From: an uncultured Bacteroidales bacterium
GTDB lineage: Bacteria > Bacteroidota > Bacteroidia > Bacteroidales > UBA932
DNA length: 64,000 nucleotides
Assembly: GCA_944323445.1 (NCBI GenBank)
Contig: CALUSM010000005.1
Coordinates: forward strand, 1 to 64,000
Direction of reading: 5' to 3'
A program made the translations under genes and the position numbers. The notes under the pieces were generated by a model. That model made no database searches, was not told the DNA's origin, and saw only the letters and a list, made by a program, of their open reading frames with translations. Positions 14,459-43,442 of the stretch are shown here, in pieces; the stretch's first letter is position 1; every line of letters starts with the position of its first letter.

Positions 14459-14580
14459 TAAGCCGGACCGCCCAAAAATTTTTCAAATGACCTGCCCTGA
14501 CCTTCAGTCGATTGCGCTCGACCACGCAAACTTTTTTACCGAACTGGCAGCCGGTATTTCTCAAAACCGAATCATTTGCC

Positions 14581-14588
14581 TACCTTTG
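14581..14588 (+). promoter_or_regulatory. Promoter -7 box of the RAYT gene
   Basis: TACCTTTG matches TAnnTTTG, with a weak TTTC about 20 bp upstream. A start near 14595 excludes an ATG at 14487 and supports translation from 14628. Confidence 0.5.
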
Positions 14589-14627
14589 CTAACACTAAAC
14601 ACAAAAGTAAGATTAGAGGGGCAGATC

Positions 14628-15638
14628 ATGAAAAACACCTGCGTATATCATCTGTGCGTGTCCTGCAAGAAGGGTCTGATGTTCAGAAGCCGCCAGGACT
14701 ACATCCGTTTCATCAACAACATGGCACTGCTGGCGTATAAATACCACATACGCATACTTGCCTTCGCCGTGATGTCCAACCACTACCACATCGGAATCAT
14801 GACCGATGACTACGAGAAGTTCTTCAGAAGTCTGAAGGTCAGTTATTCGAACTACTACTTCCACAAGTACGGAGTCAGTCTGCCGCGTACAACATGTTTC
14901 GTTCAGGAAGCCATCGGCAACCTGCACATTGTCACGCTGATAGCCTACATCCTGCGCAATCCTGTACATCACGGAATCGTGGGACACCCGTTTGCCTACC
15001 CGTATTCATCTGCCGGATGTTATTTTTCTTATAGCGGTTCCCTGTACAGCATCGGGCATGCGCCTGTAATCAAGCGTGTTACGACTACCGCTCCGAATGA
15101 GTACAAAAGCAACAGCGACCGCGAGGGAATGATCGACCCGATGACCTTCGTGGATTTCCGGATGACCGAGACTCTCTTTACATCTTCCGGCAGGCTGATG
15201 TACTTTCTGTCAAGATACTCAGGACCAAAATGGGAACAGGAGCAAAGCAAGGAGGACAGTTCGGTCAAGCCCATAACCCTTCAGAGCGTCGAGCGCCAGG
15301 GTACCGACATCGAGGCCTGCATGGAGAATGAGAAAGGCCACTCCAGCCTGTTGATTCCCGATCAACTGCTGTGCGAATGGCTTGACGGAAAAGCAGTTCC
15401 GCACTACGGCCTCACAAGTTTCGCACAGCTGGACTGGGAGCAGAGAACAGAGATAGCCAAGGCCCTTCGCTCGCGATGGAAAGTATCGGAAGAGCAGGCG
15501 GAAAGATGTCTGTACTTCCGGGCAAAGACCACTGCAGGACCCTCTGGCACCGACGGTAACCCTGCGCACAATGAAGAACGTGCTGGACAGACACCCAACT
15601 CCGATATCCGGGCCCGAAAACTTCAGGCGGCCCGCTAA
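14628..15638 (+). CDS. REP-associated Y1/IS200-like transposase (RAYT)
   Basis: A 336-residue protein of the Y1_Tnp superfamily. The HUH metal-binding pair His52/His54 lies in VMSNHYHIG, and Tyr107 in AYILRNPVHHG fits the catalytic tyrosine position of RAYT proteins. RAYTs nick and join single-stranded REP sequences and are usually single-copy, domesticated genes. The C-terminal 190 residues beyond the transposase domain are unassigned and hydrophilic. The start at 14628 was chosen because homologous sequence begins there and the promoter box is at 14581. REP-like ACAGACT repeats and palindromes flank the gene on both sides of the RAYT-kinase unit, the context expected of the family. Activity is inferred. 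Confidence 0.85.
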   Translation: MKNTCVYHLCVSCKKGLMFRSRQDYIRFINNMALLAYKYHIRILAFAVMSNHYHIGIMTDDYEKFFRSLKVSYSNYYFHKYGVSLPRTTCFVQEAIGNLHIVTLIAYILRNPVHHGIVGHPFAYPYSSAGCYFSYSGSLYSIGHAPVIKRVTTTAPNEYKSNSDREGMIDPMTFVDFRMTETLFTSSGRLMYFLSRYSGPKWEQEQSKEDSSVKPITLQSVERQGTDIEACMENEKGHSSLLIPDQLLCEWLDGKAVPHYGLTSFAQLDWEQRTEIAKALRSRWKVSEEQAERCLYFRAKTTAGPSGTDGNPAHNEERAGQTPNSDIRARKLQAAR

Positions 15639-28043: not shown

Positions 28044-28075
28044 TTTGAAAATTGTAAAATATTTTTATACTTTTG
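28044..28075 (+). promoter_or_regulatory. Promoter of the NtrC-type regulator gene
   Basis: TTTG at 28044-28047 and TACTTTTG at 28068-28075 are 20 bp apart, a full match to the Bacteroidota promoter. The box covers a possible TTG start at 28073, so translation must begin later, at 28088 or 28094. Confidence 0.75.
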
Positions 28076-28087
28076 AAGCGTAAATAC

Positions 28088-29509
28088 ATGAATATGAGTA
28101 AGAAAACCACCCCTGACGGCCGCATCCTCGTAGTCGATGACAACAAGGCCATACTCTCCGCCCTGAGGCTGCTGCTGCCCGCATATTTTTCCGAAGTTAC
28201 CCTTCTTTCCTCTCCCAACGACCTGATGCACAGCATGGAGGTCAAGCGCCCGGAGGTCGTCCTGCTGGACATGAACTTCACCGCCAAGGTGACTACGGGC
28301 AACGAGGGCCTTTTCTGGCTCGGGGAGATACTGAAGGCCTACCCCGATGTGCCGGTGGTGCTCTTCACCGCCTATTCGGACGTGGCCCTGGCCGTGGACG
28401 CCATCAAGCGCGGGGCATTTGACTTCATCATCAAGCCCTTCGACAATGCCAAGCTGGTCACCACCCTCCAGGCGGCCCTCCGCCTCTCCCGCAGCCGGCA
28501 GGAGGTCAAGCAGCTGCGCGAGATCAAGAACGAGATACGCAGCGAGGGCGACATGTTCTGGGGCGAGTCCCCCAAGATGAAGGAGCTGCGCAAGATAGTG
28601 CAGAAGGTGGCCAGGACAGACGCCAGCATCCTCATCACCGGCGAGAACGGCACGGGCAAGGACATGCTGGCCGGGGAGATACACCGCCTCTCGAAGCGCT
28701 CCGGCAGCTCGATGGTCAGCGTGGACGTAGGTTCCCTCCCCGAGAGCCTTTTCGAGAGCGAGCTCTTCGGACACGTGCGCGGGGCCTTCACCGACGCCAA
28801 GGCCGACCGGGCAGGCAAGTTCGAGGTGGCCTCGGGCGGCACCCTCTTCCTCGACGAGATAGGCAACATCCCCCTGCACCTGCAGACCAAGCTGCTCACC
28901 GCCATCCAGACCAAGAGCGTCACCCGTGTGGGCAGCAACGTCCCCGTCCCCGTGGATATCCGCCTGATCTGCGCCACGAACCGGGACATCTCCCGGATGG
29001 TCGCCGACGGTCAGTTCCGCGAGGACCTGTTTTTCAGGATCAATACCATACACCTCACCCTTCCGCCCCTGCGCGAGCGGATGGAGGACATCGTCCCGTT
29101 GGCGGAGCTCTTCATGCGCAAGTACGCGGTCAAATACGGCAAGGACATCCGGGGCATCCGGGACGAGGCCCGCGAGGAGCTGATGCAGAGGCCCTGGCAG
29201 GGCAATATCCGGGAGCTGCAGCATGTGGTCGAGAAGGCCGTGATCCTCTCCGAGAAGGGCATGCTGGAGGTGGGAGACTTCTTCCCCGAGCAACAGGACC
29301 GCAGGGGACCCGGCCGCCGCTCCAAGACCGCCGCACAGGTGCTCAAGGAGTCGGTCCGCAAGGGCAATGTGGTCACCCTCGACGACATGGAGAAGGAACT
29401 CATCCGGGTGGCAATGCGCCAGCACGACGGCAACCTGACGGTAGTCGCCCAGCAGCTCGGCATCACCCGCCAGACCCTTTACAACAAACTCAAGAAATAC
29501 GGGATGTAG
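28088..29509 (+). CDS. Sigma-54-dependent response regulator, NtrC family
   Basis: A 473-residue three-domain regulator. The receiver domain has acidic pocket Asp17/Asp18 and phosphoacceptor Asp61 in VVLLDMN. The AAA+ domain has Walker A GENGTGK (185-191), the sigma-54 contact loop GAFTDA (232-237) and Walker B LFLDE (Asp256-Glu257). The Fis-type helix-turn-helix is at the extreme C terminus (LGITRQTLYNKLKKY). It would be phosphorylated by the histidine kinase that follows directly and activate sigma-54 promoters, most obviously the efflux operon promoter next door. The DNA is much more GC-rich than the flanking genes. Confidence 0.95.
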   Translation: MNMSKKTTPDGRILVVDDNKAILSALRLLLPAYFSEVTLLSSPNDLMHSMEVKRPEVVLLDMNFTAKVTTGNEGLFWLGEILKAYPDVPVVLFTAYSDVALAVDAIKRGAFDFIIKPFDNAKLVTTLQAALRLSRSRQEVKQLREIKNEIRSEGDMFWGESPKMKELRKIVQKVARTDASILITGENGTGKDMLAGEIHRLSKRSGSSMVSVDVGSLPESLFESELFGHVRGAFTDAKADRAGKFEVASGGTLFLDEIGNIPLHLQTKLLTAIQTKSVTRVGSNVPVPVDIRLICATNRDISRMVADGQFREDLFFRINTIHLTLPPLRERMEDIVPLAELFMRKYAVKYGKDIRGIRDEAREELMQRPWQGNIRELQHVVEKAVILSEKGMLEVGDFFPEQQDRRGPGRRSKTAAQVLKESVRKGNVVTLDDMEKELIRVAMRQHDGNLTVVAQQLGITRQTLYNKLKKYGM

Positions 29510-30850
29510 ATGGGATTCCGCTCGCTCATACTCTCGGTCATCTGCCTGATGCTCGCTGTCGGTGCCCTCGTCTGGTGCCTGCTGTCAGGGTGGTACTGGC
29601 CTGCGGGCGGGGCCGGGGCAGTGACGGCCCTGCTGGTCTACCGCGTCCTGTCGATATACGGCAGCAATGTCCGCAAGCTCAACTACCTGCTGAGCGCCTT
29701 CGAGAACGGAGACCTGTCCTTCCATTTTGCCGAGAACTCCACATTTCTCCAGGACCGGGTCTTCAACATCCTTCTCAACAGGGTGAGGGACTTCGTCTCC
29801 GAGCAGCAGCGGCTCAGGGACCAGAACGAGGTCTTCCACCGAGCCGTGGAGAATCTTTCGCGGACCGGCCTGCTGGGAGTGGGACCGGCCGGGGAGGTGC
29901 GCTGCTGCAACCGGGCGCTGACCTCTGTCCTCGGCTTGGGAGTCATCCGGCACATCTCCGACTTAGACCGGCTGATGCCCGGACTGACGGCGCGTATCGA
30001 GGCTCTGGAGGAGGGCGGGACGTTGGAAGTGCCGATAGGTTCCGAGATGCGGATATACAACTTCGAGATAGGGAAGTACACCGTCATGGACGGAAACACC
30101 CCCGTGCGGCTCTACGTCTTCGAGGAGAAGGCCGGGAGCCGCACCGAGGCCGAGCGGTCCGAGAGCGCCCAGTGGCAGAAGATGACCAGGATTATCTCCC
30201 ACGAGGTGCTCAATACCATCACGCCCATAGTCTCGCTCAGCGATACCCTGCACGACATGACCGACGACCGCAACCTCCGGGAGGGCATACAGGTCATCGG
30301 CGAGTCGGCCCGCGGCCTGCTGGGCTTCGTCAACGGCTACCGCGCCCTCTCCCGCGTGCCGGTGCCGCAGATTCATCCCTTCAAGTTCCGGCCGATGCTG
30401 GACTATGTGCTCTCGCCGCTGCTGCCCGGGGTGGAGGAGCTCGGAGGGCGGGTCGATATTGCTCTGGAGGATGAGGACATGGTCCTCTTCGCCGACGAGC
30501 AGCTGATGCGGCAGGTGGTCGCCAACATCCTGAAGAATGCGCTCAATGCCCTGCGCGACCGGTTCGGGGAGAAGGCCGCTCCTGCTGCCGCTCCCCTCGA
30601 CGACGTGCCCCTCATCCGTATCACCGCATTCGTCAACGCCTCCGATAACACCGAGATCCACATCTCCAACAACGGCGACCCCATCCCCGATGAGAACGCC
30701 GACCACATCTTCGACCCCTTCTTCACCACCCGCGCCGAAGGCACCGGCGTCGGCCTCGCCCTCTCCCGCCAGATCATGCGTGCCCACGCCGGCTCAATCC
30801 GCCTCGACCGCACCGACCCCGCCCTCACCACATTTGTCCTCACCCTCTAG
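29510..30850 (+). CDS. Membrane histidine kinase, NtrB-like
   Basis: A 446-residue sensor kinase whose ATG directly follows the regulator's stop codon, implying coupled translation. Two N-terminal transmembrane helices (about 5-45) with almost no periplasmic loop are followed by a HAMP-like or linker segment, a PAS-like region (about 110-210), the H-box RIISHEVLNTITPI with phosphorylated His231, and a HATPase domain with the N box (NILKNALNAL), the FFTTR and the GTGVGLALS boxes. The lack of an external domain suggests that it senses a membrane or cytoplasmic signal. It is the cognate kinase for the preceding NtrC-type regulator. Confidence 0.93.
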   Translation: MGFRSLILSVICLMLAVGALVWCLLSGWYWPAGGAGAVTALLVYRVLSIYGSNVRKLNYLLSAFENGDLSFHFAENSTFLQDRVFNILLNRVRDFVSEQQRLRDQNEVFHRAVENLSRTGLLGVGPAGEVRCCNRALTSVLGLGVIRHISDLDRLMPGLTARIEALEEGGTLEVPIGSEMRIYNFEIGKYTVMDGNTPVRLYVFEEKAGSRTEAERSESAQWQKMTRIISHEVLNTITPIVSLSDTLHDMTDDRNLREGIQVIGESARGLLGFVNGYRALSRVPVPQIHPFKFRPMLDYVLSPLLPGVEELGGRVDIALEDEDMVLFADEQLMRQVVANILKNALNALRDRFGEKAAPAAAPLDDVPLIRITAFVNASDNTEIHISNNGDPIPDENADHIFDPFFTTRAEGTGVGLALSRQIMRAHAGSIRLDRTDPALTTFVLTL

Positions 30851-30956: not shown

Positions 30957-32297
30957 ATGCTTTATAGAAAAATTGCCAGGCGGATAGAGGAGTATCTTTC
31001 CTCCGATTCAAAACAGTTGCTGCTCATTGACGGGGCGCGTCAGACAGGCAAGTCCTATATCGTGCGTTGGGTCGGGCAGCGTATGTTTCCCAACTATATA
31101 GAGATCAATATGGAGGAGGACCGGCTCGGAGACCGCGTCTTCGCTCAGGCAAGGACGGTCAGCGATTTTTATCTGGCATTGAGCATTGTGGCCGGAGACA
31201 GGATGAAGGATAAGAGATCGACTCTTGTGTTTATCGACGAGATTCAGGCGTATGACCATCTGCTGACTTTGGTGAAGTTCCTTATGGCTGACGGGCGTTT
31301 CACTTACATCGCCAGCGGCTCTCAGTTAGGCGTCGCCTTGAAGAAAACGCAGTCGGTCCCGCTTGGAAGTATAAGGATGGAGCGTATGTACCCTATGGAT
31401 TTTGAGGAGTTTATGTTGGCAAATGGTGTTGGAGGTGAATTAATCGGAGCCATGCGTGAGAGGTTCCGTAAACAGGAGGCTATGCCTGAGGCTCTGCATA
31501 ATAAGTTGATGGATCTGTTTAGAAAATACCTGCTGGTTGGCGGGCTGCCGGCGGCGGTAGACAGTTTTGTTAAAAATTCCAATATTGTAGAATTCAGATG
31601 TATACAGAAAGATGTACATGATCTCTATGCTGTTGATGCCTCGAAATACGAGGAAGAAAATGGTAGAAAGCTGAAAGTCCGCAGGATATTCGAAATGATA
31701 CCTTCGAATCTGGCAAATAAGAAAAAGCGGGTGATAATTAAAGATATTGAGAATAAAAGCTGGAAGAGGTCAGAGAACTATCAGGACGAGTTCGAGTATC
31801 TGATATCTGCCGGAGTCGCTTTAGAGGTGAGGGCCGTCAGCACTCCATCCTATCCACTTGCGGCCAACAGCGGAAAGAACCTTCTCAAGCTGTACCTGAA
31901 TGATGTGGGCCTGCTGTCCGGAATGTACTTTAAAAACAACATCCGGGCCATCATGTCCGACGAAGGGAGCATCAACCTCGGTTCGGTATACGAGACAGTT
32001 GTCGCCCAGGAACTGAGAGCGCACGGTCATGAGCTGTTCTACTATGACAACAAGAAGAACGGCGAGGTGGATTTTCTGATCGACGATGCGGACAATCTGT
32101 CGAATATCCCAATAGAGGTCAAGTCCGGAAAGGACTACACTGTCCACAGCGCCCTGAATAAATTCTTGTCAGTAAAGGACTACAACATCAAGCGTGCCTA
32201 CGTGCTGTCCAACAGCCGCGAGGTGTCTGTGGTGAATGGAACAATTTATATCCCGGTTTACTACGTAATGTTTTTGACTTTAGAAACTTTTTGCTAA
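30957..32297 (+). CDS. AAA ATPase with DUF4143 domain
   Basis: A 446-residue AAA_14/DUF4143 protein, full length for the family. Walker A is GARQTGKS (26-33), Walker B is LVFIDEIQ (about 94-101), followed by sensor YIASGSQLG. The C-terminal DUF4143 part contains GSVYETVVAQELRAHG and the nuclease-like pattern GEVDFLI then PIEVKSG. These ATPases are widespread in Bacteroidota with no agreed role. The gene is monocistronic, with a promoter of its own, and is more AT-rich than the kinase gene before it. A promoter for the next transcript overlaps its 3' end. Confidence 0.88.
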   Translation: MLYRKIARRIEEYLSSDSKQLLLIDGARQTGKSYIVRWVGQRMFPNYIEINMEEDRLGDRVFAQARTVSDFYLALSIVAGDRMKDKRSTLVFIDEIQAYDHLLTLVKFLMADGRFTYIASGSQLGVALKKTQSVPLGSIRMERMYPMDFEEFMLANGVGGELIGAMRERFRKQEAMPEALHNKLMDLFRKYLLVGGLPAAVDSFVKNSNIVEFRCIQKDVHDLYAVDASKYEEENGRKLKVRRIFEMIPSNLANKKKRVIIKDIENKSWKRSENYQDEFEYLISAGVALEVRAVSTPSYPLAANSGKNLLKLYLNDVGLLSGMYFKNNIRAIMSDEGSINLGSVYETVVAQELRAHGHELFYYDNKKNGEVDFLIDDADNLSNIPIEVKSGKDYTVHSALNKFLSVKDYNIKRAYVLSNSREVSVVNGTIYIPVYYVMFLTLETFC

Positions 32298-32302: not shown

Positions 32303-32352
32303 CGCGGATGCCGATGGCAGAGAGCCGTCAGCAACACAGACAGATTGATGAA

Positions 32353-32405
32353 AGTGTCAGGCTTGTAGTCCTTGAGCGAGAATGTGGTAGTTTTCAGTAA
32401 ACAAG
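32353..32405 (+). repeat. Left copy of the inverted repeat bracketing the caspase operon
   Basis: This 53-bp segment runs from agtgtc to gtaaacaag. Its last 32 bp match the complement of 39732-39763 at 31 of 32 positions, and similarity continues outward to the shared agtgtc. It lies in the non-coding leader upstream of the WD40 gene. Confidence 0.7.
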
Positions 32406-32553
32406 GATGTGGCGCGGCACTTGTCGTCCATATCTTACGTACCACCGGGACACAGGCGCCGCTGTGCTGTGAAAAACTTCTATAATCCTCTCTTATAGGG
32501 CGGGACTGTCCGCTCCACACTTTCTTTGTATTATGCCATAGGGAGGAGCAGCT

Positions 32554-32580
32554 ATGGGTAAAATTTGGTTTTTATGTTAA
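32554..32580 (+). CDS. Possible 8-codon leader ORF with strong Shine-Dalgarno
   Basis: An ATG at 32554 is preceded by the strong ribosome-binding site agggaggag, rare in this phylum. It encodes MGKIWFLC and stops at a TAA that overlaps the ATG of the WD40 gene (atgttaa). This could couple or attenuate translation of the following gene. It may also be chance. Confidence 0.3.
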   Translation: MGKIWFLC

Positions 32581-34649
32581 GATTACTGGTATGTGCTTTG
32601 GCATGTGTATTTTTAATGCAGCCCGCAATTGCCGCACAACCGCAGACAGAGAGTCCTGACAGTGCGTATGTGTTCCCTCAGAAAGTAACGCCTGAAGGTT
32701 TCGATACCTGGGAGTTCTCAGTTTACTATTTCAATGCCGGTAAGATATACAATCTAATGGGAGTGTCTGTCAATCATATTAATGGGCAGATACACTCAAT
32801 AGCATTGGATCCTACTGGAGTACATTATGCCGTGCTGTACGGAAAAGATGGACGAGAAAAGGTAGGAGTGTTCGGTATGTATGATGCATATATGCCTGGA
32901 ACTCAAGTAGACGTCTCCAATATGACGCCAAGAGCCATATGCTGGTCGGCTGATGGGAAAAGACTTTTTGTTGCCATAGATGACAATACAGTCAGAGTCT
33001 TTGATGCCCCGTCATACAAAGAAATCCGGAATATCTCTTTGGATTTCGCAGCAGAAGTGATTGCTGTTGACAGTAGAAACAGATATATGGCTCTGGTGTC
33101 GGAAAACAGAATGACGGTTATAGATCTGTATGACTATGGAATAAGGACTGGACTTGGGTTTGAAGCAGATATTAATTCAATCAAGTTTTCAGAGGACGGT
33201 TCCTTGCTGGGTGTGGTCTTGTCGGGAGGGAAAATGCTGGTATATGACACTCAGTCTTTTACTGTCATTCATGAAGCGGATGCTTTGGGCCTGGGGCTTG
33301 ACTGTTCGATACATCCTGACGGGAAATATATTGCGGCTGTGTCCGGTCCAGGCCGTATCGTGATAGTCAATACTCTTAATCCTGATGACCGGCAGTATAT
33401 AGACACAAAGCAGGAAGGTATTACAGGTGTTGATTTCGTCCGGGAGAAAGACGGCCGGATATATCTTTTGTATAATACTTCGTCATCGATGGTGTATGAT
33501 CCTGTTTCGAATCTTGCACCATTCTATACACGTCTTTTGCAGGATGAACTGGATGCCAGGATGGATGAGTGGATGCAGCAGATGCCGGGTGAGTCCTTGG
33601 AGGATTACCGCCTCAGGGTCAACGATGAGACAAAGGCCGAGCAGATGAAACTCTTTGAGCAGGAGATAGCTACCAGGATGGCGGACAATATGCTGGAAGC
33701 TTCAACCATCACGTTGGACAATTTCAATACTCAAAGCAATATGCTGGAGGTTAGCTTTGACAATATGCCGCCGATTTATCTTGATGTTCCTGCAGAGGAC
33801 GTCAATGATTTTATGGATCCCGGTCAGCTGGAGTTTCATAATACGCTGTACGGATTGAATGACCGTGATGAATTTGAGGTAATCTATACAGAGGTCTATA
33901 ACACGATGTCCGGCAAAACCTATATTTTTGACAACAAGGACAGGCAGCCGCTTGAATATCTGGCGTCAGAAGAAGGTTTTGTCCCTCTGGAGCTGGTTCA
34001 GATGTCCAATATGGAGGAAATGAAACTTAAGGAAATAAAAGACAATATAGTCAACAGTTCTCTAGATCAGAAAATCATCTCGAATCATACCCGGATAGCG
34101 GTAAGTACCAGAGTGCTTTCAGGAACAGATGAAAACGGAGAAAAAATAGTGAATTATGAGATAGGTTTCTCCTATAATGTCGAGAAAGAATTTTCTGGAC
34201 GGGAGGATTTTGCTCCGGGCAAGTACAGGACAGACAATTCGGGAGCTGCAAAGTCCCTCGCAAGGATTATTCAGGCCGCGTTTACCAATGAGTTCGCACA
34301 GTATATGACTCCTGGTCGCAGACTGGTGGTGACAATCACAGGCATGGCGGACCGGCTGCAAATCAAAAACAGAATAGAGTATGACGGTATTTACGGTGAG
34401 TTTGAGAATGTTACAGTATATGGTGATGAAGGGCCTTTCCAGCTTACTGTCACGTCCCGGACCGGTATTCAGGAAAATGAGCAGCTTGCTTTTGTGAGGG
34501 CTGCCGGTATCAAGGATTATCTTACGCAGAATATTTTTCAGCTCGGTAATATGGATGTTGAGTACAAGTACAATATTGTCTTGTCTGAAGGTGTGGGTGG
34601 AGAGTTTCGCAGAATATCGGTCAACTTCCTTTTTATTGATGTCTTTTAG
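32574..34649 (+). CDS. Exported WD40-propeller protein with OmpA-like C terminus
   Basis: The 691-residue protein starts at the ATG at 32574, which gives a clean signal peptide (MLRLLVCALACVFLMQ, cleavage after AIAA). Residues about 60-310 form WD40-like blades with repeats such as CWSADGKRLFVAIDDNTVRVFD and related units. Residues about 315-463 are an unnamed domain shared with the two caspase proteins downstream. The C-terminal 130 residues resemble an OmpA-like domain (VVTITGMA, then NEQLAFVRAAGIKDYL and RRISVNF). The protein should act in the periplasm, perhaps bound to peptidoglycan. It is the first gene of a four-gene operon (10 bp before the TPR-caspase). A scaffold or sensor for the caspases is the natural inference. 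Confidence 0.8.
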   Translation: MLRLLVCALACVFLMQPAIAAQPQTESPDSAYVFPQKVTPEGFDTWEFSVYYFNAGKIYNLMGVSVNHINGQIHSIALDPTGVHYAVLYGKDGREKVGVFGMYDAYMPGTQVDVSNMTPRAICWSADGKRLFVAIDDNTVRVFDAPSYKEIRNISLDFAAEVIAVDSRNRYMALVSENRMTVIDLYDYGIRTGLGFEADINSIKFSEDGSLLGVVLSGGKMLVYDTQSFTVIHEADALGLGLDCSIHPDGKYIAAVSGPGRIVIVNTLNPDDRQYIDTKQEGITGVDFVREKDGRIYLLYNTSSSMVYDPVSNLAPFYTRLLQDELDARMDEWMQQMPGESLEDYRLRVNDETKAEQMKLFEQEIATRMADNMLEASTITLDNFNTQSNMLEVSFDNMPPIYLDVPAEDVNDFMDPGQLEFHNTLYGLNDRDEFEVIYTEVYNTMSGKTYIFDNKDRQPLEYLASEEGFVPLELVQMSNMEEMKLKEIKDNIVNSSLDQKIISNHTRIAVSTRVLSGTDENGEKIVNYEIGFSYNVEKEFSGREDFAPGKYRTDNSGAAKSLARIIQAAFTNEFAQYMTPGRRLVVTITGMADRLQIKNRIEYDGIYGEFENVTVYGDEGPFQLTVTSRTGIQENEQLAFVRAAGIKDYLTQNIFQLGNMDVEYKYNIVLSEGVGGEFRRISVNFLFIDVF

Positions 34650-34659
34650 GACTTGAGCT

Positions 34660-37176
34660 ATGAGAAGATTCTTGATATCAGTATTTCTTCTGCTGTGTTT
34701 TGCGGTTTGTGCGTCATCTCAGTCCCTGGAAAGGGCTGAATCGGAATATTCCACTTTTCTGAAGCTGCATCAGGCTGGAGGAGACGAGTCTGTGATGTAC
34801 CAGACACTGTATAGTGCTTATAGGGACTATACAGCCATGCTGAAAGCCGCACAGCGTGGCTCTCAGAGTTATGTGTCGGCCCGTCAAAGGCTTTATGAGT
34901 TGAGACCATATCTTCAGGAGGGTGCTGTATGGTATTCGCAGAAAGGCTCCCAGCACAATGCGCTGATATTGGCGCAGGCGTTTGTAGATATTCCTATGAT
35001 GGAGGAATTTGCGGGAATGACTTTCGCCAGGGACGATTATTATTCAACTATGGTGTATTTTGCAGCGTCAGGGACTTACAATGAGAAAGACTATGCGCGG
35101 GCTATCCCTTATCTGCGTGAGTACCTGACGACTGGAGATTCCCGAAACCGTAAGAATGTATACATGTTTCTGTCCAGGGCCTGCAGTAATGTCCGGGACT
35201 ACCGTCAGGCAGTTGAAGTTATGGAGGAGGCGGCCGGTCTCTGGCCTTCTGATTTCAATGTCCTGTCCATGACTATCAATGCATGTATTGACGCTGGAGA
35301 CAATGAAAGACTTCAGAGATATGTCTCAAGAGCGCTTGGAATGAAGCCGGAAGATCCTACATTGTTGAATATTCAGGGCAAATTGTATGAGGAGACCAGA
35401 GATTTCCGGGGTGCGGTGACTGTATATGAGAAGCTCCAGAGGCTGATGCCGCGCAGTCTGGATGTTGCGGAACATCTGGCGATGAATACCTATAATCTGG
35501 CTGTTCTCCATTATAATCAAGGAGACAGGACAAGAGCGTCAGAATATTTCCGTAAGTCCATACCTGTCATGGAGGGTATAGTGGCGGCAAATCCCGGTTC
35601 GGTAATGTTTCTGCAGGCATTGGCGACTGCTTATAACTGCACGGGGAACAGAAATTCTCTTCAGCAGACTAACCGGAAAATCATTGCTGCCGGAGGAATG
35701 GAGGTGACGGGAAACGATATTCCTTCATTGATGGCGTACAATGAAGGTGCGGTGCAGGGAAACAGCAGCTACAGCATCAATGCTGGAGGCGGCGCGGAAA
35801 CTTATGCCCGGAACGAAACCCCGTCATACTCTTCTTATGCAAGAAAGTACGTTGAGGACCGTATCGGCAAGTGGCAGGAAAAGGATCCGTATGAGACAGT
35901 GGATGAATATAAGGTAAGAGTTACGGAGCAGACCCGTCAGGTCAAGGTACAGGAGCTGATGAAAGCTGCAGAGGACAACTATATCAGTATCTATGCTCAG
36001 GAGCTCGGGCCTTCGGATGTGTCGTTACGTCCTTATGATGCGGAAAATGAGGTGTTTATGGTGGAGACCACTTATGGAGAGATTATCATCCCGGTTCCCA
36101 GGGCCAACAATGAGGCCCGTATGTTCGAGAGCAACTGGAATGGAATGCAGCTGCGCAATCCTGAGTACTACATCAAGGATGACCGATTGGCTCTCTCTTC
36201 CCTGACGTTTGTAAGTCCGACCGGTCAGATTTATAAATACGATGACCAGAATGCCTTGAATTATACACAGACCGTAGTGGACATGCAGTTTTCTGATATT
36301 GATTACAGCCATCTGGCATCCAGTACATCCTCACATGAAAGGGCTTCTCCGCGTATAAACCGGCAGAATGTGAGCGTGGGTGTTTCGGATGTAGATATCA
36401 ATATTCCTGAGAACACGGCAACCAATGAGAATACTTTTGCTGTTGTTATAGCCAATGAGAACTATCAGATGGTCTCACCTGTTCCGATGGCTCTCAATGA
36501 CGGCAGCACTTTCGCAAAGTACTGTAATCTGACCCTTGGACTGCCGGAGAGCAATGTCCGTTACTATGAGGATGCCACATACGGTGTGTTCATGCGTGCT
36601 ATGAAAGATATCAAGCAGATAGCAGATGTGTACAATGGAGACATCAACGTCTTGTTTTACTATGCGGGACATGGAATCCCGGACGAGGAGACCAGGGACG
36701 CATTCCTGCTGCCGGTTGATTCAGATGGACTGGAGACGGCGGTGTGCTATCCTCTAAGCAAGCTGTATGCTGAGTTGGGTGGATTGCATGCCAGGAATGT
36801 AGTGGTGTTTCTGGATGCATGCTTCAGCGGAGCGCAGCGTGACGGAGGCATGGTGACCGGGGCCAGCGGAATGAGAGGCGTGGTAGTCCGTCCGAAACAG
36901 GATGCGCCTCAGGGCAATATGATTATATTTTCAGCAGCCTCAGGTGAAGAGACTGCCCTGCCCTATTCGGATAAAGGACACGGTCTGTTTACATACTACC
37001 TGCTCAAGAAGCTGCAGGAGACAGCAGGGAATGTTACTCTTGCTGAACTTACGGATTATGTGATAGAGAAAGTGGGACAGCAGTCTGTGGTTATCAACAG
37101 AAAGGCTCAGACCCCCACGGTCAATGCCGCAGCTTCTTTGGCTGATTCATGGAAAACATTGAAACTTAGAAAATAA
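34660..37176 (+). CDS. Exported TPR-caspase-like (C14) protease
   Basis: An 838-residue protein with a signal peptide (MRRFLISVFLLLCFAVCASS). TPR-like helical repeats fill about 130-330 (for example KDYARAIPYLREYL). The shared domain occupies about 392-547 (KWQEKDPYETVDEYKVRV to the DDRLALSSL segment), and the C-terminal caspase-fold peptidase about 585-830. The catalytic dyad is His671 in YYAGHGIPDE and Cys721 in FLDACFSGA. Caspase-like proteases in bacteria are often linked to cell death or envelope processing; here the signal peptide places it outside the cytoplasm, which is unusual. It sits between the WD40 protein gene and a beta-barrel-like protein gene. Substrate unknown. Confidence 0.88.
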   Translation: MRRFLISVFLLLCFAVCASSQSLERAESEYSTFLKLHQAGGDESVMYQTLYSAYRDYTAMLKAAQRGSQSYVSARQRLYELRPYLQEGAVWYSQKGSQHNALILAQAFVDIPMMEEFAGMTFARDDYYSTMVYFAASGTYNEKDYARAIPYLREYLTTGDSRNRKNVYMFLSRACSNVRDYRQAVEVMEEAAGLWPSDFNVLSMTINACIDAGDNERLQRYVSRALGMKPEDPTLLNIQGKLYEETRDFRGAVTVYEKLQRLMPRSLDVAEHLAMNTYNLAVLHYNQGDRTRASEYFRKSIPVMEGIVAANPGSVMFLQALATAYNCTGNRNSLQQTNRKIIAAGGMEVTGNDIPSLMAYNEGAVQGNSSYSINAGGGAETYARNETPSYSSYARKYVEDRIGKWQEKDPYETVDEYKVRVTEQTRQVKVQELMKAAEDNYISIYAQELGPSDVSLRPYDAENEVFMVETTYGEIIIPVPRANNEARMFESNWNGMQLRNPEYYIKDDRLALSSLTFVSPTGQIYKYDDQNALNYTQTVVDMQFSDIDYSHLASSTSSHERASPRINRQNVSVGVSDVDINIPENTATNENTFAVVIANENYQMVSPVPMALNDGSTFAKYCNLTLGLPESNVRYYEDATYGVFMRAMKDIKQIADVYNGDINVLFYYAGHGIPDEETRDAFLLPVDSDGLETAVCYPLSKLYAELGGLHARNVVVFLDACFSGAQRDGGMVTGASGMRGVVVRPKQDAPQGNMIIFSAASGEETALPYSDKGHGLFTYYLLKKLQETAGNVTLAELTDYVIEKVGQQSVVINRKAQTPTVNAAASLADSWKTLKLRK

Positions 37177-37192
37177 ATTTTATACAATAATA

Positions 37193-38083
37193 ATGATGAA
37201 ACGAATCATTTTAATTTGTGTTCTGGCTGTATCGGCATTGTTTGCCTTACATGCGCAGGATGTGGTCAAAGGTAAGGTCGTGGACAAGCACGGCAATCCT
37301 GTTCCCGGAGTGAAGATAGAGACCAATGACGGCAAGGAATTCACATTGTCCGGTCTTGACGGTACATTCTCCCTTAGCCCGGGTATCACTTACGGTGATG
37401 CCTATGCCAGGTACGGAGGTTTCAAATCCGTATCTTCCAGAATATATCAGGATATGACAATCGTCATGCGTCCGGAGACATGGTGGAACCGTGAACCCTA
37501 TAAGAAAGACTGGTTCATCTTGCTGGAGTCTGCTTTCCGTTTCTCTCCAGGCACATCCAACACACCTTCTCTCGGATTGATGTTTGGTCAGGTCAAGCGT
37601 TGGGGGTGGTACGTAAAGGGTACTGTGTGGCTGAAAGGAAAATCTGACCTCGAGGCATCACAGTATGTGGATTTCAATGATGAGAAGGTTCCTATACATC
37701 AATGGTTGACAACGGGGAAAGTCAGACGCAGCACATCTGCTTTGACTGCCGGTGCCGTAGCGCGTCTGGGCTGTGCCCTGCATTTGTATTTCGGCGCAGG
37801 TATGGCATTGCTTCAAGATCAGTATCAGTTGGTGGATAACAGATGGATAGCATTGTCTCCATCCGATTATGCGGTTTTCGGTGACGTTGCTCCCAAGGAG
37901 GAGCTGACAGCAGACAGAAGCAGTACTTTTGATTTAGTATGGGACATAGGTCTTATGCTTAATATGGATATTCTTACTCTCAGCGTAGGTGCTTCGTGGC
38001 TGTTTGCTACGGGTATTGCAGGACAGTCCGGCCCCAAAGACTCTGCATGCATGCTGAATATAGGTATAGGTGTTAACTTTTAA
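37193..38083 (+). CDS. Outer-membrane-barrel-like protein with CarboxypepD_reg-like domain
   Basis: A 296-residue exported protein: signal peptide (to about LHAQ, residue 22), a CarboxypepD_reg-like beta domain beginning VVKGKVVDKHGNPVPGVKIE (about 24-95), then about 190 residues of amphipathic beta strands with aromatic girdle residues (WGWYVKGTVWLKG, ending LNIGIGVNF). A final Phe is typical of outer membrane barrels. It is the third gene of the WD40-caspase operon (16 bp after the caspase gene, 12 bp before the lipoprotein). It may anchor the complex at the outer membrane, which is inference. Confidence 0.7.
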   Translation: MMKRIILICVLAVSALFALHAQDVVKGKVVDKHGNPVPGVKIETNDGKEFTLSGLDGTFSLSPGITYGDAYARYGGFKSVSSRIYQDMTIVMRPETWWNREPYKKDWFILLESAFRFSPGTSNTPSLGLMFGQVKRWGWYVKGTVWLKGKSDLEASQYVDFNDEKVPIHQWLTTGKVRRSTSALTAGAVARLGCALHLYFGAGMALLQDQYQLVDNRWIALSPSDYAVFGDVAPKEELTADRSSTFDLVWDIGLMLNMDILTLSVGASWLFATGIAGQSGPKDSACMLNIGIGVNF

Positions 38084-38095
38084 ATCCAAACAATC

Positions 38096-39208
38096 ATGAG
38101 AATACGAATATTTACGGCGTTTGCGTTCATAGCATCTCTTGCAATGATGTACAGCTGCTCCAGTGGGGGAGAATATTTTCTGCCGGAGGACAAGCAAGCT
38201 GCGGTAGTCACTCTTGATGCAGCAGATATAAGTGTTAGTTCAGCAATTCTTTATGGTGTATACAGGATGGCGGGACCGAGTGCTGCGGACAGATATTTTG
38301 AATTTTCATCCTCGCCTGATTTTCCTGAGGAAACGACAGAACAGTATTCTGCCCGCCACTCATCTCCCGATAGCAGGTATCCTGAATATGATACGGAGGA
38401 TGGAAATTGGAAATTTCAGAAGTATGGGGTATATGACTTGGAACCCAGTACCACCTATTATTACCGTTTAATCATTGCAGACGGAACAGTTGAGCTTATA
38501 GGCGGGACGAAGCAGTTCACAACTGCAGACAGGGAAACCTCCAGGCTTGAGTTTTATGGGGAGACAACGGGCACTGACAAATACAGATTTCAGATAGATG
38601 CTTATGGAGGTGATGTGATAGGATTTGATTTCCGGATTATAAATTGGGACAGCAGTTATGGGGTACCGGTGATAGCAGTAGAGTGGAGTGTTGATTGGAT
38701 ATCCAATCCTGGATATGTATTTTTTGATACAGATGAAGAGCATGGAATAGTATCCGGCCAATTGCAGTTGGGTATAATCCCGAATGAATCCGGTATTGAG
38801 CGTGACTGTATTGTACGCCTTACTTTACTTGATCAGGATGTGGAAATCCATCTTGTCCAAGAAGCATTAGAGCCTCATCTGATTTTCCCTGAAGGTTACG
38901 AATACCAGATTGAAGCATCCGGGGGCGAGTATTATTCATTTATCCCGTTCAGGATTGAAAATTACGGCTATGAATGCTATATGAATAATGGTGATCCGGG
39001 ACTGCGATTTGAAAGCGACAGCAGCTGGCTCTCCGAAGTGACGTATGGATACCTGGAGTATAATACATATAATTGTACCGGATATATAAATTTTGTAGCA
39101 GAACCCAATACTGCTGCATTGGAACGTGAGTGTTATGTTACGGTTCGTTTTCGGGATGACTATCATTACATTAATATTGTGCAGTCAGCAGGAGAACCTG
39201 GGACTTGA
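38096..39208 (+). CDS. BACON/FN3-type lipoprotein, C-terminally truncated
   Basis: A 370-residue lipoprotein (lipobox MMYSCSS, Cys about 20). An FN3-like domain (about 35-150, ending TTYYYRLIIADGT) is followed by two BACON-like repeats that end with the motifs IHLVQEA and INIVQSA, typical of surface proteins in Bacteroidales. The frame ends at a TGA, but homologous coding sequence for a Fib_succ_major-type domain continues downstream in another frame, so the original protein was longer. Truncation may leave a partly functional protein. It is the last gene of the WD40-caspase operon and probably faces the cell exterior. Confidence 0.7.
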   Translation: MRIRIFTAFAFIASLAMMYSCSSGGEYFLPEDKQAAVVTLDAADISVSSAILYGVYRMAGPSAADRYFEFSSSPDFPEETTEQYSARHSSPDSRYPEYDTEDGNWKFQKYGVYDLEPSTTYYYRLIIADGTVELIGGTKQFTTADRETSRLEFYGETTGTDKYRFQIDAYGGDVIGFDFRIINWDSSYGVPVIAVEWSVDWISNPGYVFFDTDEEHGIVSGQLQLGIIPNESGIERDCIVRLTLLDQDVEIHLVQEALEPHLIFPEGYEYQIEASGGEYYSFIPFRIENYGYECYMNNGDPGLRFESDSSWLSEVTYGYLEYNTYNCTGYINFVAEPNTAALERECYVTVRFRDDYHYINIVQSAGEPGT

Positions 39209-39618
39209 CAGGCCAGTTAAATGGATATGAGTGAGTAGACCTTGGACTCAGTGTCCGTTGGGCGATTTGTAATGTAGGTGCAGCAGAGCCGTCAGATTAC
39301 TGTGGTTATTATGCATGGGGTGAAACAGAAACAGAATATCTGCCGGAGAACAGTGTTGCTTGGTAACAGAATATGGGTGATATCTCAGGGGATTCCCGAT
39401 ACGATGCTGCTGCAGCCAGTTGGGGCGATGGATGGCGTTTGCCTTCAAGTGATGAGTTAAAAGAATTGGCCGATGAGTGTACATGGGTATGGATGACAGA
39501 AAATGGTCATGGCGGTTTTAAAGTGACAGGTCCTAATGGTGTAAGTATTTTTCTGCCAGCTAGCAGATATAAGTTATTTGATTTCGGATTAAGTATAAGA
39601 CCTGTCGCAGATAAATAA
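39209..39618 (+). pseudogene. Decayed Fib_succ_major-type domain
   Basis: Shifted relative to the lipoprotein before it, the frame reads LTGQLNGYE-stop-VDLGLSVRWAICNVGA, then YYAWGETETEY, a second stop, and SWGDGWRLPSSDELKELA through SIRPVADK. This is the order of the Fibrobacter succinogenes major domain common in Bacteroidales, but with a frameshift, a TGA and a TAA, and a deletion of the tract that usually precedes RSVRPV. It is the broken C-terminal part of the preceding lipoprotein. The piece from 39373 could still be read as an 81-residue frame. Confidence 0.7.
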
Positions 39619-39642
39619 AAAGGTGTGGAACCGGCAATGTCT

Positions 39643-39786
39643 GAGCGAAGGTTGTGGTAAAACCCGTAAACAAACACACACGCAGTTCCACACCCGTAAT
39701 TGTCGAAACGAATGCAGAGTGTGCGTGTGTGCTTGTTTACTGAAAATTACCACATTCTCGCTCCAAGTATTACCGCACCGGACACT
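39643..39786. repeat. Right repeat: long imperfect palindrome, inverted copy of 32353-32405
   Basis: Two related arms face each other here: 39643-39681 (gagcga, tgtggta, gtaaacaa) and 39725-39763 (ttgtttac, taccaca, tcgctc). The second arm, extended to 39786, is the inverted copy of 32353-32405. A separate perfect 10-bp inverted repeat ggtgtggaac/gttccacacc lies at 39622-39631 and 39685-39694, and a hairpin ggacac/gtgtcc begins at 39779. The whole 39619-39842 stretch holds no gene. Confidence 0.7.
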
Positions 39787-39842
39787 CGTTGTGTCCTACT
39801 CTATAATGCAAACATAGTGAAAAATTACTAAAAACGTAAAAT

Positions 39843-40882
39843 ATGCATTGGAATATACTTAAAATAGGTGCCGTTCAGTTTTTCCTGGTGGTGTCCTCCT
39901 TGCTTGCGGCGGCTGCTTCGTCGGTGAAGCTTCCCGAGTGGGCGGTGAACTTGAAGGACGGCGAGTATCTCGGGGTGTCCTTTCCCGGTGGCGGGCAGCG
40001 GCAGGCGGAGGTGATGGCGCTGATGGCTATGTGCAAGGTGGAGTATGTTCATAGCGGATTTAGAATAGTTGTTAACAGACAGATTAGCTATGATGTCAAG
40101 AATGTGGAACTCCTTTCTAGCGGAGAGACAGTCGTAATACTGACTGATGGAGAGAGTGTTTCCCGTAGAGTCAGAATGGTAAAAGAATTTTATAGGATGT
40201 ATTGTGGTGATGATCCTTCCAATTTTACTGCCAAAGGTGAATTGATCATGACTGTCGACGAAGAGTGTGAGTTGCATATGAGCACTTACAAGATAGATGG
40301 TAATTATAATTTGGCATGTAGGTGGACTGACTACAGAGAAATGGATTCTGGAGTGTGGATACATGATGATGAGAAAGGGACAGTTAATCAGAATCTATGC
40401 TTATTAACGAAGTGGAGCAGGCAGGTCTGCTGCCTCTTGCCTCTATTTCGTTCCAGAAAGACAAGCAGGTCTTTTCGTTCATGGCACCAGTTTATTCCGC
40501 ATGGAGGGACAGGATAGTGAGAAGAGCCTTGAACGATCTGACGCCTGGAGAAGTCGATGAGGCAAAGTATATCGATAGTCTGACTACTGCCTTGAGGCAG
40601 TATTATATCCGGTCAGTGTCTGCGGGTATCCAGGACAAGAACAGGCAGTCAATCCTTTATTATAACTCGGAAAAAGAAATGTTCTTGATACGGGACGCAC
40701 ACTTCGGATATGTCTTTGTTCCGGTCTTGGAGGAAGACCATGGAGTATTTGAGAAGCAGTTTGATTCCATGAAGCGAGAGTACGAATACGATATAGCCGA
40801 TGACAGGCTGGCCCTTGTCAGTGTTGCATATACCACGACAGATGGACAGACCTATCGAAGCTCGGATGTCTCGGGCAGTTAA
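39843..40882 (+). pseudogene. Frameshifted, truncated paralogue of the second caspase gene
   Basis: Two overlapping frames, 39843-40517 and 40397-40882, together match the first 400 residues of the intact caspase protein encoded at 41376. The first gives the signal peptide and the LPEWAVNL...GEYLGVS and GGGQRQAEVMALM region. The second continues with the part equivalent to MLVSKAMERG and the shared domain, ending near the DDRLALVSV segment. A one-base indel near 40390 causes the shift, and the caspase domain is missing altogether. The first 150 bp are GC-rich and closely match the intact gene, the next 350 bp are AT-rich, which hints at recombination. If read at all it would make a catalytically dead fragment. 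Confidence 0.8.
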
Positions 40883-41059
40883 TCCTTAATACGAAAATTA
40901 TGTTTTGCAGCGGCTATAAATGTCAGTCTGTTTTCTCGTTTTGAACGTAAGCTGATGTTTTATAAATGATTATCCGTAAAGATACCCCTGAATCCTTCAC
41001 GTTGCTTTTTAGTTGAGTTGTATGCGTTTGAATATAAGTGTTTTTATAAGGGTTGGACC

Positions 41060-41240
41060 GGATGAATGGCGGTTGAGCGGCAGCCATAAGGATCTGCACT
41101 GACAATGCAGCAGACCGAAAGTCTCTAAACCGACTAGTTGAGAAGACGCCTCAGTTACGGGGCGGAGTGAGCTACTGCAAGGGCCTTAGGCGGATGAGGC
41201 CAGCCACGAAGCGGTCAGAGAGTCCGGCCGGCGCTAATCA
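41060..41240 (+). ncRNA. Candidate structured RNA upstream of the second caspase gene
   Basis: A GC-rich block inside a 490-bp gene-free stretch (40883-41375) contains five successive local hairpins: atggc/gccat (41066-41087), ctgca/tgcag (41094-41110), agac/gtct (41112-41124), cgcctc/ggggcg (41147-41164) and ggcct/aggcc (41182-41201). A promoter-like TATCTTTG follows at 41246. No known RNA family was recognised and the strand is uncertain. Confidence 0.3.
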
Positions 41241-41348
41241 GGGTGTATCTTTGCGGGTGACTTTACTACAGACTCAGACTGAAAGAGGATGGACATAAAG
41301 TAATCAAAGATTGTGGGCCGGTCTGCTCGACTATTCAGATTAAACAGC

Positions 41349-41356
41349 TATATTTG
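41349..41356 (+). promoter_or_regulatory. Promoter -7 box of the second caspase gene
   Basis: TATATTTG lies 19 bp before the ATG at 41376 and is preceded by gattaaac, as at the nitroreductase promoter. It makes an upstream ATG at 41313 untenable. Confidence 0.6.
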
Positions 41357-41375
41357 CGATATCTATCTAAACACA

Positions 41376-43442
41376 ATGATTATGCTTTACAGACACTGTT
41401 TGTTGTTTATATTTTTCAGCCTAGCCGCCGTGCTGTCCTATGCTGAGCCGGTGAGGGTGCCTGACTGGGCGGTGAATTTGGGCGAGGGAGAGTATCTTGG
41501 AGTGTCCCTGCCGGGCGGCGGCCAGCGGCAGGCAGAGGTGATGGCGCTGATGGGAATGTGCCAGCAGCGGATGCTGTTCTGCGGCAGCAGTGCTGTATTT
41601 GAGGATTCGGTAAGTTACGATGTGAGAAAGGTCGGGCTTCTGACCAGCGGAGAGACAGTCGTGCTGATATCGTCCGGCAATTCGAGGACTGATTATGTGA
41701 GGGTGACCATCAGTCATCCGTTCTATACTTTCCCGACGTATGAGACATCCCGGTTCGAGGCGGATATACAGGTGGAAGGGGAGTGCGGAATGCTGGTGCT
41801 GGCTTCCTATTCCTCCAAGTCGGGAAACAACCTCGGAGTCATGTGGCAGGATGTGCCTTCTGGCGGAAGGATGATGTGGAAGCGTCTGAGTGACGGAGAA
41901 CTGGGCTATGTCGGTTATTCTGCGGAAGATGAGTACGGCCCTTATGCTGCCGTGCCGGCTGATTTGTCCGGCGGCTATGATTTTTCCCTGGAGATGGATA
42001 CGGACGGTCTGTATCTGTCTGAGTGCATGCTGGTGTCCAAGGCGATGGAGCGCGGATTGTTCGTACTGTCCTCTGTCTCGTTCGCAGACGGCAGGCTGAC
42101 GTTGTATTCCAGGATTCCTCCGTTCAGTGTATGGGCTAAGGACGCGGTCGAGAGGAAAGTCGGAGCATGGCAGAAAAAGGGTAAATATGAGAAGAGTGCA
42201 GATTATGTGAAGAGGGTCAACAATGATACCAGGCAGCAGCTTGTGGATTCGCTGGTGGCTGAGGGCAGGACCTGGTACCTGAGAGGGGCGTATTACGGAA
42301 TGGAGACAGAGCAGTCCATCGTGAACTATGATGCTGACAATGAAGTGTTCCTGATCCGTGATTCGAGGTTCGGGGATCTGCTTCTGGGGATTCCGATAGA
42401 TGCGGCTCCGGAATTTGAAGATCAGTTCGGCCTGATAGAGAAAATCGGGGAATATGATATTGTGGGAGATACCATTGCTCTTGTCGGAATGACTTACCGG
42501 ATGGATGACGGGACGATGTATTATTTCAGCGATACCGAGGCCCTGAGGTATGCTGAAGTCACGGTTGACTACAATTTTGACCCTATAGAGATTTCCGCAG
42601 AGCCGGTCGGCCCGGTGGAGGACCGTCAGCTGATAACGGAGGGCAGTCTTTCTGTAGGCAAGTCCGATGTGGATACGGATATTCCGGTTACCGGCCGCAA
42701 GTCCGGGAATACATTTGCCGTCATTATCGCGAACGAGAATTATGATACTGAGTCCCTTGTGAACTATGCCCTCAACGATGGCAATACGTTCCGGCAATAC
42801 TGCATAAAGACGCTGGGTATTCCTGAGACCAACATCAGCCTCGTTCAGGATGCTACTCTCAACAATATCCGGGCGCAGGTGGACATGCTGGCCAATATCG
42901 GGAATGCTTACGGCGGAGAAGCCAGGCTGATATTCTATTATGCAGGTCACGGTATTCCGGACGAGTCTTCAAAGGACGCTTATCTGCTGCCAGTTGACGG
43001 ATACGGCAACAATACGGCGACAGGATACAGGCTCAGTGAGCTCTATTCGCAGCTTTCTGCGATTCCCGCCTCTTCGGTACTGGTCTTCATGGACGCCTGT
43101 TTCTCAGGCGCTGACCGGGATGACCGGATGTTGTCGGATGCCAGGGGTATAGCGTTGAAAGTCAAGTCAGAGGTGCCTCAGGGCAGGATGGTGGTCTTTT
43201 CGGCGGCGCAGGGTGATCAGACAGCTCTCGGGTACGATGAGAAAGGTCACGGGATGTTTACCTATTACCTGTTGAAAAAACTTCAGGAGTCCCGTGGAGA
43301 AGTGACATTGGGCGAACTGGGAGACTACGTGACCGATGCGGTCCGCAAACTGTCCTCCACTCCGGCGTACAACAAGCCTCAGGTACCTGAGATTTCCGCA
43401 GGAGAGAGTCTTGGAGAGGTATGGCGGGACATAGAGCTGTAA
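41376..43442 (+). CDS. Exported caspase-like (C14) protease with LPP20-like N terminus
   Basis: A 688-residue protein. The start at 41376 (or 41382) gives a signal peptide MLYRHCLLFIFFSLAAVLSYA. Residues about 28-110 contain PDWAVNL, GEYLGVS and QRQAEVMALMGMC, a pattern like the LPP20/surface-antigen domain. The shared domain with the WD40 and TPR-caspase proteins lies at about 247-398, and the caspase fold at about 440-680 with His525 in YYAGHGIPDE and Cys575 in FMDACFSGA. It is a close paralogue of the TPR-caspase in its C-terminal half but replaces the TPRs. A broken copy lies immediately upstream. It should act in the periplasm or on the surface. Confidence 0.87.
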   Translation: MIMLYRHCLLFIFFSLAAVLSYAEPVRVPDWAVNLGEGEYLGVSLPGGGQRQAEVMALMGMCQQRMLFCGSSAVFEDSVSYDVRKVGLLTSGETVVLISSGNSRTDYVRVTISHPFYTFPTYETSRFEADIQVEGECGMLVLASYSSKSGNNLGVMWQDVPSGGRMMWKRLSDGELGYVGYSAEDEYGPYAAVPADLSGGYDFSLEMDTDGLYLSECMLVSKAMERGLFVLSSVSFADGRLTLYSRIPPFSVWAKDAVERKVGAWQKKGKYEKSADYVKRVNNDTRQQLVDSLVAEGRTWYLRGAYYGMETEQSIVNYDADNEVFLIRDSRFGDLLLGIPIDAAPEFEDQFGLIEKIGEYDIVGDTIALVGMTYRMDDGTMYYFSDTEALRYAEVTVDYNFDPIEISAEPVGPVEDRQLITEGSLSVGKSDVDTDIPVTGRKSGNTFAVIIANENYDTESLVNYALNDGNTFRQYCIKTLGIPETNISLVQDATLNNIRAQVDMLANIGNAYGGEARLIFYYAGHGIPDESSKDAYLLPVDGYGNNTATGYRLSELYSQLSAIPASSVLVFMDACFSGADRDDRMLSDARGIALKVKSEVPQGRMVVFSAAQGDQTALGYDEKGHGMFTYYLLKKLQESRGEVTLGELGDYVTDAVRKLSSTPAYNKPQVPEISAGESLGEVWRDIEL

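Follow-up and report, generated by a model that had tools for sequence, protein, structure and literature searches.

Bacterial homologues of caspases have mostly been discussed as cytoplasmic proteases of cell death and defence. A survey of 2012 noted that many prokaryotic metacaspases carry a probable signal peptide, that WD40 and TPR repeats are their commonest accessory domains, and that a cyanobacterium possesses a CHASE2-caspase fusion (PMC3501461). Here we describe an operon in a 64,000-nucleotide stretch of an uncultured Bacteroidales bacterium (contig CALUSM010000005.1, positions 1 to 64,000; the window), whose genome lies in or near Candidatus Coprenecus (the genus, in what follows) by the nearest relatives of its propeller protein. 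The first two genes encode a WD40 propeller protein and a TPR-caspase, both predicted to be exported, with one domain in common. Exported metacaspases and WD40- or TPR-metacaspases were known already, and the proposal of a first-pass annotation that exported bacterial caspases lack precedent does not hold against the survey. Its suggestion that the core pair is undescribed fared better: no account of a paired propeller-caspase module with a shared domain and a wall-binding-like partner was found in the searchable open-licence full-text literature, most subscription journals lying outside it.

A propeller protein and a caspase encoded side by side

An alignment of the propeller protein was scanned against 84,980 species genomes and gave 93 confirmed relatives across Bacteroidales, 80 of which were kept; their records are named Bacteroides, Phocaeicola, Prevotella, Barnesiella, Odoribacter, Alistipes, Muribaculaceae, Paludibacteraceae and Candidatus Coprenecus. 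A TPR-caspase gene lies directly downstream on the same strand in 71 of the 73 fetched loci that extend 3.2 kb or more downstream (median gap, 20 bp). This pairing was not selected for, because the loci were searched with the propeller protein alone. In one of the other two loci (L114) the caspase is encoded two genes upstream of the propeller gene, and the second (L131) has no caspase gene. Pairwise tree distances of the two proteins point to co-inheritance (r, 0.84; the best of 200 permutations reached 0.10). Recurrence elsewhere had been set beforehand as a test of the prediction, and across Bacteroidales families the core pair keeps both its gene order and its catalytic residues. The linker-OmpA part of the propeller protein matched none of 72,556 plasmid records.

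Signal-peptide-like N-termini, scored by a crude rule, are present in 74 of 76 propeller proteins and 74 of 75 caspases, compared with 78 of 184 other flanking open reading frames. The same rule finds such a segment on all the window proteins that the first-pass annotation had listed, and the loss of signal peptides that it had named as refuting its proposal did not occur. In about two-fifths of the propeller and caspase signal peptides a Gln follows the possible cleavage site, a pattern reported for Bacteroidetes signal peptidase I substrates (PMC5837995). We predict from these N-termini that the core pair is exported and resides outside the cytoplasm.

The caspase domain is clear in both the paired TPR-caspase and a second caspase of the window (Pfam Peptidase_C14, 70 and 74 bits; cut-off, 21.4), with the intact dyads already annotated: His671/Cys721 in the former and His525/Cys575 in the latter, counted from the ATG of a 688-residue protein and one lower in a 687-residue count. 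Because His and Cys are both intact in 84 of 84 distinct TPR-caspases, whereas neither survives in any of the 11 members of a lone linker-caspase lineage in the genus, the paired protein appears to be maintained as an enzyme, in a family that can also give rise to pseudoenzymes. Its AlphaFold2 model (predicted local distance difference test [pLDDT], 83.5; predicted template modelling [pTM] score, 0.44) comprises a TPR superhelix, the linker domain and the caspase domain, connected by disordered stretches. By Foldseek the caspase domain matches MALT1 paracaspase (TM score, 0.74 by target) and also caspases; MALT1 provides the best Foldseek matches outside TPR proteins and the best PDB sequence matches of the domain. 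D719, two residues N-terminal of Cys721, and D614 are invariant among TPR-caspases, which is consistent with the basic-P1 pocket described for orthocaspases (PMC6426788). Cleavage after Arg or Lys is predicted on the basis of these two Asp residues.

The propeller protein was modelled with a pLDDT of 88 and a pTM score of 0.68, and its propeller part matched PDB propellers. D593, N635 and R642 in its C-terminal domain are invariant in an alignment of 45 homologues and correspond in order and motif to the Asp-Asn-Arg triad (D576, N584, R591) with which PorE binds peptidoglycan (PMC7192894). The modelled domain runs strand-helix-strand-helix-strand-strand, an order of secondary structure that fits the OmpA-like fold, and OmpA is the commonest weak Pfam match in the C-terminal ∼190 residues, none being above threshold. 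The OmpA-like end proposed earlier thus keeps its invariant residues and predicted topology and falls short of Pfam recognition; the domain is probably OmpA-like and wall binding.

The two proteins have in common an unnamed domain of ∼140 residues (hhalign P, 8.8e-17; probability, 98.8), which sits between the binding repeats and the functional end in both and recurs in both the second caspase and the dead caspase lineage. No Pfam match above threshold covered this linker when the full-length proteins were scanned, and the pair defines it as a new shared domain. Gene pairing, export signals, catalytic and wall-binding-like residues, and the shared domain can all be read directly from the sequences.

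Clustering of neighbouring genes distinguished two layouts, with mixtures in three loci (L089, L092 and L098). The first runs CHASE2, c7, WD40-OmpA, TPR-caspase, DUF4384-like, c3 and a Cys-His-Asp protein; the second, that of the window, runs WD40-OmpA, TPR-caspase, CRD-barrel and Ig-like lipoprotein. The CHASE2 membrane protein is a neighbour in 27 loci (70.3 bits in L116; Pfam cut-off, 26.3), and since a 392-residue representative has no other credible Pfam domain, no cytoplasmic output domain was recognized in it, on a presumed topology. DUF4384 is above the Pfam cut-off in members of its cluster. A transglutaminase-like assignment of the Cys-His-Asp neighbour (46 loci) was rejected, as it had only a motif (conserved DC, H and DPT) and no Pfam match, and LPP20 similarity, considered for the c3 family and the N-terminal part of the second caspase, was dropped for want of Pfam support. 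In several species of the genus, a second WD40-OmpA/TPR-caspase pair adjoins ATP synthase genes (L009 5649-10544; L044-L046, L048 and L049).

A candidate protease switch outside the cytoplasm

The core pair suggests a protease-switch pathway outside the cytoplasm. The propeller protein would be an exported scaffold, probably tethered to peptidoglycan through its OmpA-like C-terminal domain, and proteolysis would fall to the TPR protein, an exported orthocaspase whose His-Cys dyad is intact and which is predicted to cut after Arg or Lys. The shared domain may bring scaffold and protease together, and binding of a ligand, a mis-assembled envelope protein or a partner by the propeller or TPR part could then relieve or concentrate the caspase. 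Where an inner-membrane CHASE2 protein is encoded alongside, as in many genomes, it may serve as the sensor; signal, scaffold and protease would then all lie outside the cytoplasm. The outcome would more likely be limited regulatory cleavage of envelope proteins than death of the whole cell. We infer complex formation, wall anchoring, activation, trigger, substrate and outcome alike, and regard such a wall-tethered periplasmic module, with the protease activated through the shared domain, as probable, if only just. A more elaborate version seems unlikely: a periplasmic caspase-activating platform, in which the wall-anchored propeller recruits and activates an exported caspase zymogen by homotypic domain contact, with CHASE2 sensing and carriage as cassette cargo in one genus. 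If true, it would place an entire caspase signalling pathway outside the cytoplasm. In either form the pair offers a testable case of periplasmic caspase-fold signalling, and Bacteroides timonensis, Prevotella sp. 885, Barnesiella sp. WM24 and Odoribacter lunatus DSM 112344 are named hosts in which trigger and substrate could be sought.

Several observations weigh against the wall-tethered module. Signal peptides were scored by the crude rule rather than by SignalP, and most of the genomes are metagenome assemblies. Pfam OmpA never rose above its cut-off (sub-threshold match in 5 of 19 members; best E, 0.02), and profile-profile comparison (hhalign) with genomic OmpA domains was negative or very weak on two occasions; for this reason the OmpA-like end is kept as residue and topology evidence only and is worded as probably wall binding. 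A propeller-OmpA gene occurs without an adjacent caspase in an Odoribacter sp. (L131) and in a further locus (L047; G002:C22), and the window operon itself has no CHASE2 gene. The pair is also rare. Because an even sample of 393 Bacteroidales genomes gave matches in only nine (E, 1e-40), two of them partial, we describe its distribution as widespread but patchy.

That patchiness (9 of 393 genomes) would suit an envelope death or conflict device, in which attack on the envelope by phage or antibacterial toxin activates the exported caspase, and its degradation of envelope proteins kills the cell or disarms the invader. The caspase domains match a PADLOC caspase model, the operon ends recur without the operon in the genus, and an accessory gene and a paralogue show decay, all as such a device might predict. 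Yet the pair has no recurrent neighbour that encodes a pore-former, nuclease or other killer; its recurrent partners are instead DUF4384, CRD-barrel, lipoprotein and Cys-His-Asp proteins, and the second copy of the pair is stable beside ATP synthase genes in several species. PADLOC matched no known defence system beyond the caspase domain, and a known anti-phage system was rejected on that ground. Since no killer gene recurs, cell death is less supported, and we think a device of this kind improbable. Distinctly less probable is an ordinary secreted degradative protease that serves nutrition with its adaptor and without a regulated switch. Export, the gut habitat, and barrel and lipoprotein neighbours that appear to resemble nutrient-uptake surfaces would agree with it, but caspase-fold enzymes are selective, no SusC/SusD-like cluster recurs among the neighbours, 27 loci have the CHASE2 sensor neighbour, and pairing is strict with a propeller protein that has wall-binding-like residues and the shared domain.

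The conservation of the dyad bears on a structural role, in which propeller and TPR would scaffold the envelope and the caspase domain would be vestigial. The genus does have pseudocaspases of related architecture (all 11 dead), but both catalytic residues are kept in 84 of 84 TPR-caspases, and we hold this explanation to be very improbable. We give still less credence to the idea that the pair is an accessory of type IX secretion, related to PorE (TPR-WD40-CRD-OmpA) but split into several proteins. The kinds of domain in PorE are indeed spread here over a propeller protein with an OmpA-like end, then a TPR protein, then a CRD protein (PMC7192894). Nevertheless, the domain order differs, PorE has no caspase, the propeller protein has no well-placed lipobox, and the PorP family was found in 0 of 19 genomes of the genus, whereas 16 of 21 other genomes searched had matches above the cut-off. 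Membership in the type IX system was rejected on domain order and on the absence of PorP from these 19 genomes.

The operon of the window, its flanks and further caspases

The operon consists of the first four genes (32574-39208), with intergenic gaps of 10, 16 and 12 bp (Table 1). It is complete in a sister species (L041); a contig edge removes the upstream end in L042, and in L040 the downstream end is cut. The barrel-like protein and the lipoprotein were both correctly annotated. Relatives of the barrel gene keep the same operon position, and its CRD match is sub-cut-off in the window and above cut-off in a homologue. The lipoprotein gene is damaged: its BACON match is sub-threshold, and relatives run on into a FISUMP-like domain, the counterpart of which lies out of frame and contains stops in the window. 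The upstream two-component genes, also present upstream of the operon in the sister species (G013), are a possible regulator of it. An AAA_14/DUF4143 ATPase gene (30957-32297) separates them from the operon and is not at the same place in G013 (L041).

Table 1. Features in and around the operon, by position in the window
Feature	Position	Strand	Parts or basis
NtrC-type response regulator	28073-29509	+
Histidine kinase	29510-30850	+
Element U, conserved non-coding, upstream leader/end of operon unit	32339-32586	+	conserved in four species
Left arm of 32-nt inverted repeat	32374-32405	+
WD40 propeller protein, predicted exported, 691 residues	32574-34649	+	signal peptide; propeller ∼30-315; shared linker ∼318-460; probable OmpA-like C-terminal domain ∼500-691 (profile scans, alignment, AlphaFold2)
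TPR-linker-caspase, predicted exported, 838 residues	34660-37176	+	signal peptide; TPR superhelix 25-345; shared linker 390-530; caspase domain 585-838 (profile scans, alignment, AlphaFold2, Foldseek)
Codon of His671	36670-36672	+	catalytic
Codon of Cys721	36820-36822	+	catalytic
CRD/barrel protein, 296 residues	37193-38083	+	CarboxypepD_reg-like N-terminal domain, then predicted outer-membrane barrel
Lipoprotein with Ig/BACON-like domains, 370 residues	38096-39208	+	C-terminally truncated relative to homologues
Decayed FISUMP-like C-terminal domain of lipoprotein	39230-39620	+	other frame, internal stops; comparison with L041, L042
Element D, conserved non-coding, long imperfect hairpin, downstream	39614-39843	.	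three species
Right arm of 32-nt inverted repeat	39732-39763	-
Broken paralogue of second caspase	39843-40882	+	N-terminal domain and linker in two frames
Second caspase, predicted exported, 688 residues	41376-43442	+	own N-terminal domain, shared linker, caspase domain (His525/Cys575)

Two non-coding elements flank the operon in four Coprenecus species, U just 5' of the propeller gene and D 3' of the lipoprotein gene (D read in three, with 87% mean column identity). The plus-strand RNA of D folds with a z of -4.3, and D could be a small RNA or the end of an element; on the minus strand (window 39608-39800) its hairpin ends in a short stem and a T run. Neither flank belongs to a known Rfam family, and weak matches to miRNA families were rejected, being far under gathering scores and fitting the hairpin by chance. 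U and D have in common a 32-nt inverted repeat, 97% matched, that occurs only at these two sites in the window genome. In another genome (G006; L199, C50) U (1465-1677) and D (1687-1917) lie 10 bp apart with no operon between them, and a further genome (G016) has U at a second site, as in G006, besides its operon copy. Because the conserved ends also occur empty elsewhere, a mobile cassette that carries the operon as cargo is suggested for the genus; alternatively, the empty ends may be a leader and terminator left behind by a precise deletion, and the segment between the inverted repeats is possibly invertible. The empty shell of G006 adjoins a gene with motif-level resemblance to REP-associated (Y1-type) transposases, and the window has a Y1-type transposase gene at 14487-15638 (Pfam Y1_Tnp, barely above cut-off).

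The first-pass annotation had treated all its listed genes as one set. The broken paralogue that it reported is present, its caspase domain gone and its N-terminal and linker parts left, but together with the second caspase, whose orthologues elsewhere stand outside this operon, it is a lineage separate from the four-gene operon. The genome holds three further caspases: a TPR-caspase with inserted domains, immediately behind a second WD40-OmpA gene (contig 21), one with other N-terminal domains (contig 2), and one that has lost both catalytic residues (contig 1). The pseudocaspase lineage of the genus (G000:C1:60614-61300; L011 7271-9340; orthologues in ten other loci) consists of N-terminal repeats, the shared linker and a caspase domain, in which His is replaced by Gln, Lys, Arg or Leu and Cys by Ser or Thr in all 11.

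Comparison with described systems

The pair resembles prokaryotic metacaspases and orthocaspases (MEROPS C14B) in its His-Cys caspase domain and predicted basic-P1 pocket (PMC3501461, PMC6426788). Unlike metacaspases that contain WD40 or TPR repeats, propeller and caspase are here separate, paired and predicted exported proteins, with an unnamed domain in common and a wall-binding-like end on the propeller protein. PorE (PG1058) likewise combines a periplasmic propeller with an OmpA-like end and has TPR and CRD in its toolkit (PMC7192894, PMC5053529), but it is a single lipoprotein (TPR-WD40-CRD-OmpA) without a caspase, whereas the domains here are split over separate proteins.

By analogy, the apoptosome of Apaf-1 and caspase-9 also joins a propeller scaffold to a caspase with one type of domain in common. 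The operon proteins differ in having no NB-ARC/STAND ATPase or CARD Pfam match, in a shared domain without a Pfam name, and in a predicted location outside the cytoplasm. MALT1 paracaspase is the closest solved caspase-domain structure by Foldseek, but it acts in eukaryotic cytoplasmic signalling and has other domains. LbcA-CtpA of Pseudomonas provides a further analogy, a TPR adaptor for a periplasmic protease, and LbcA, whose PDB entry describes it as a binding partner of CtpA, is among the TPR matches; here, in contrast, the TPR repeats belong to the protease itself, which has a propeller protein as its partner. CtpA is also another kind of protease, a PDZ serine protease. Finally, the cyanobacterial fusion (PMC3501461) links CHASE2 to a caspase, as do many loci with the pair, but the fusion places the caspase in the cytoplasm, whereas the CHASE2 protein of these loci is encoded separately, next to a caspase that is predicted to be exported.

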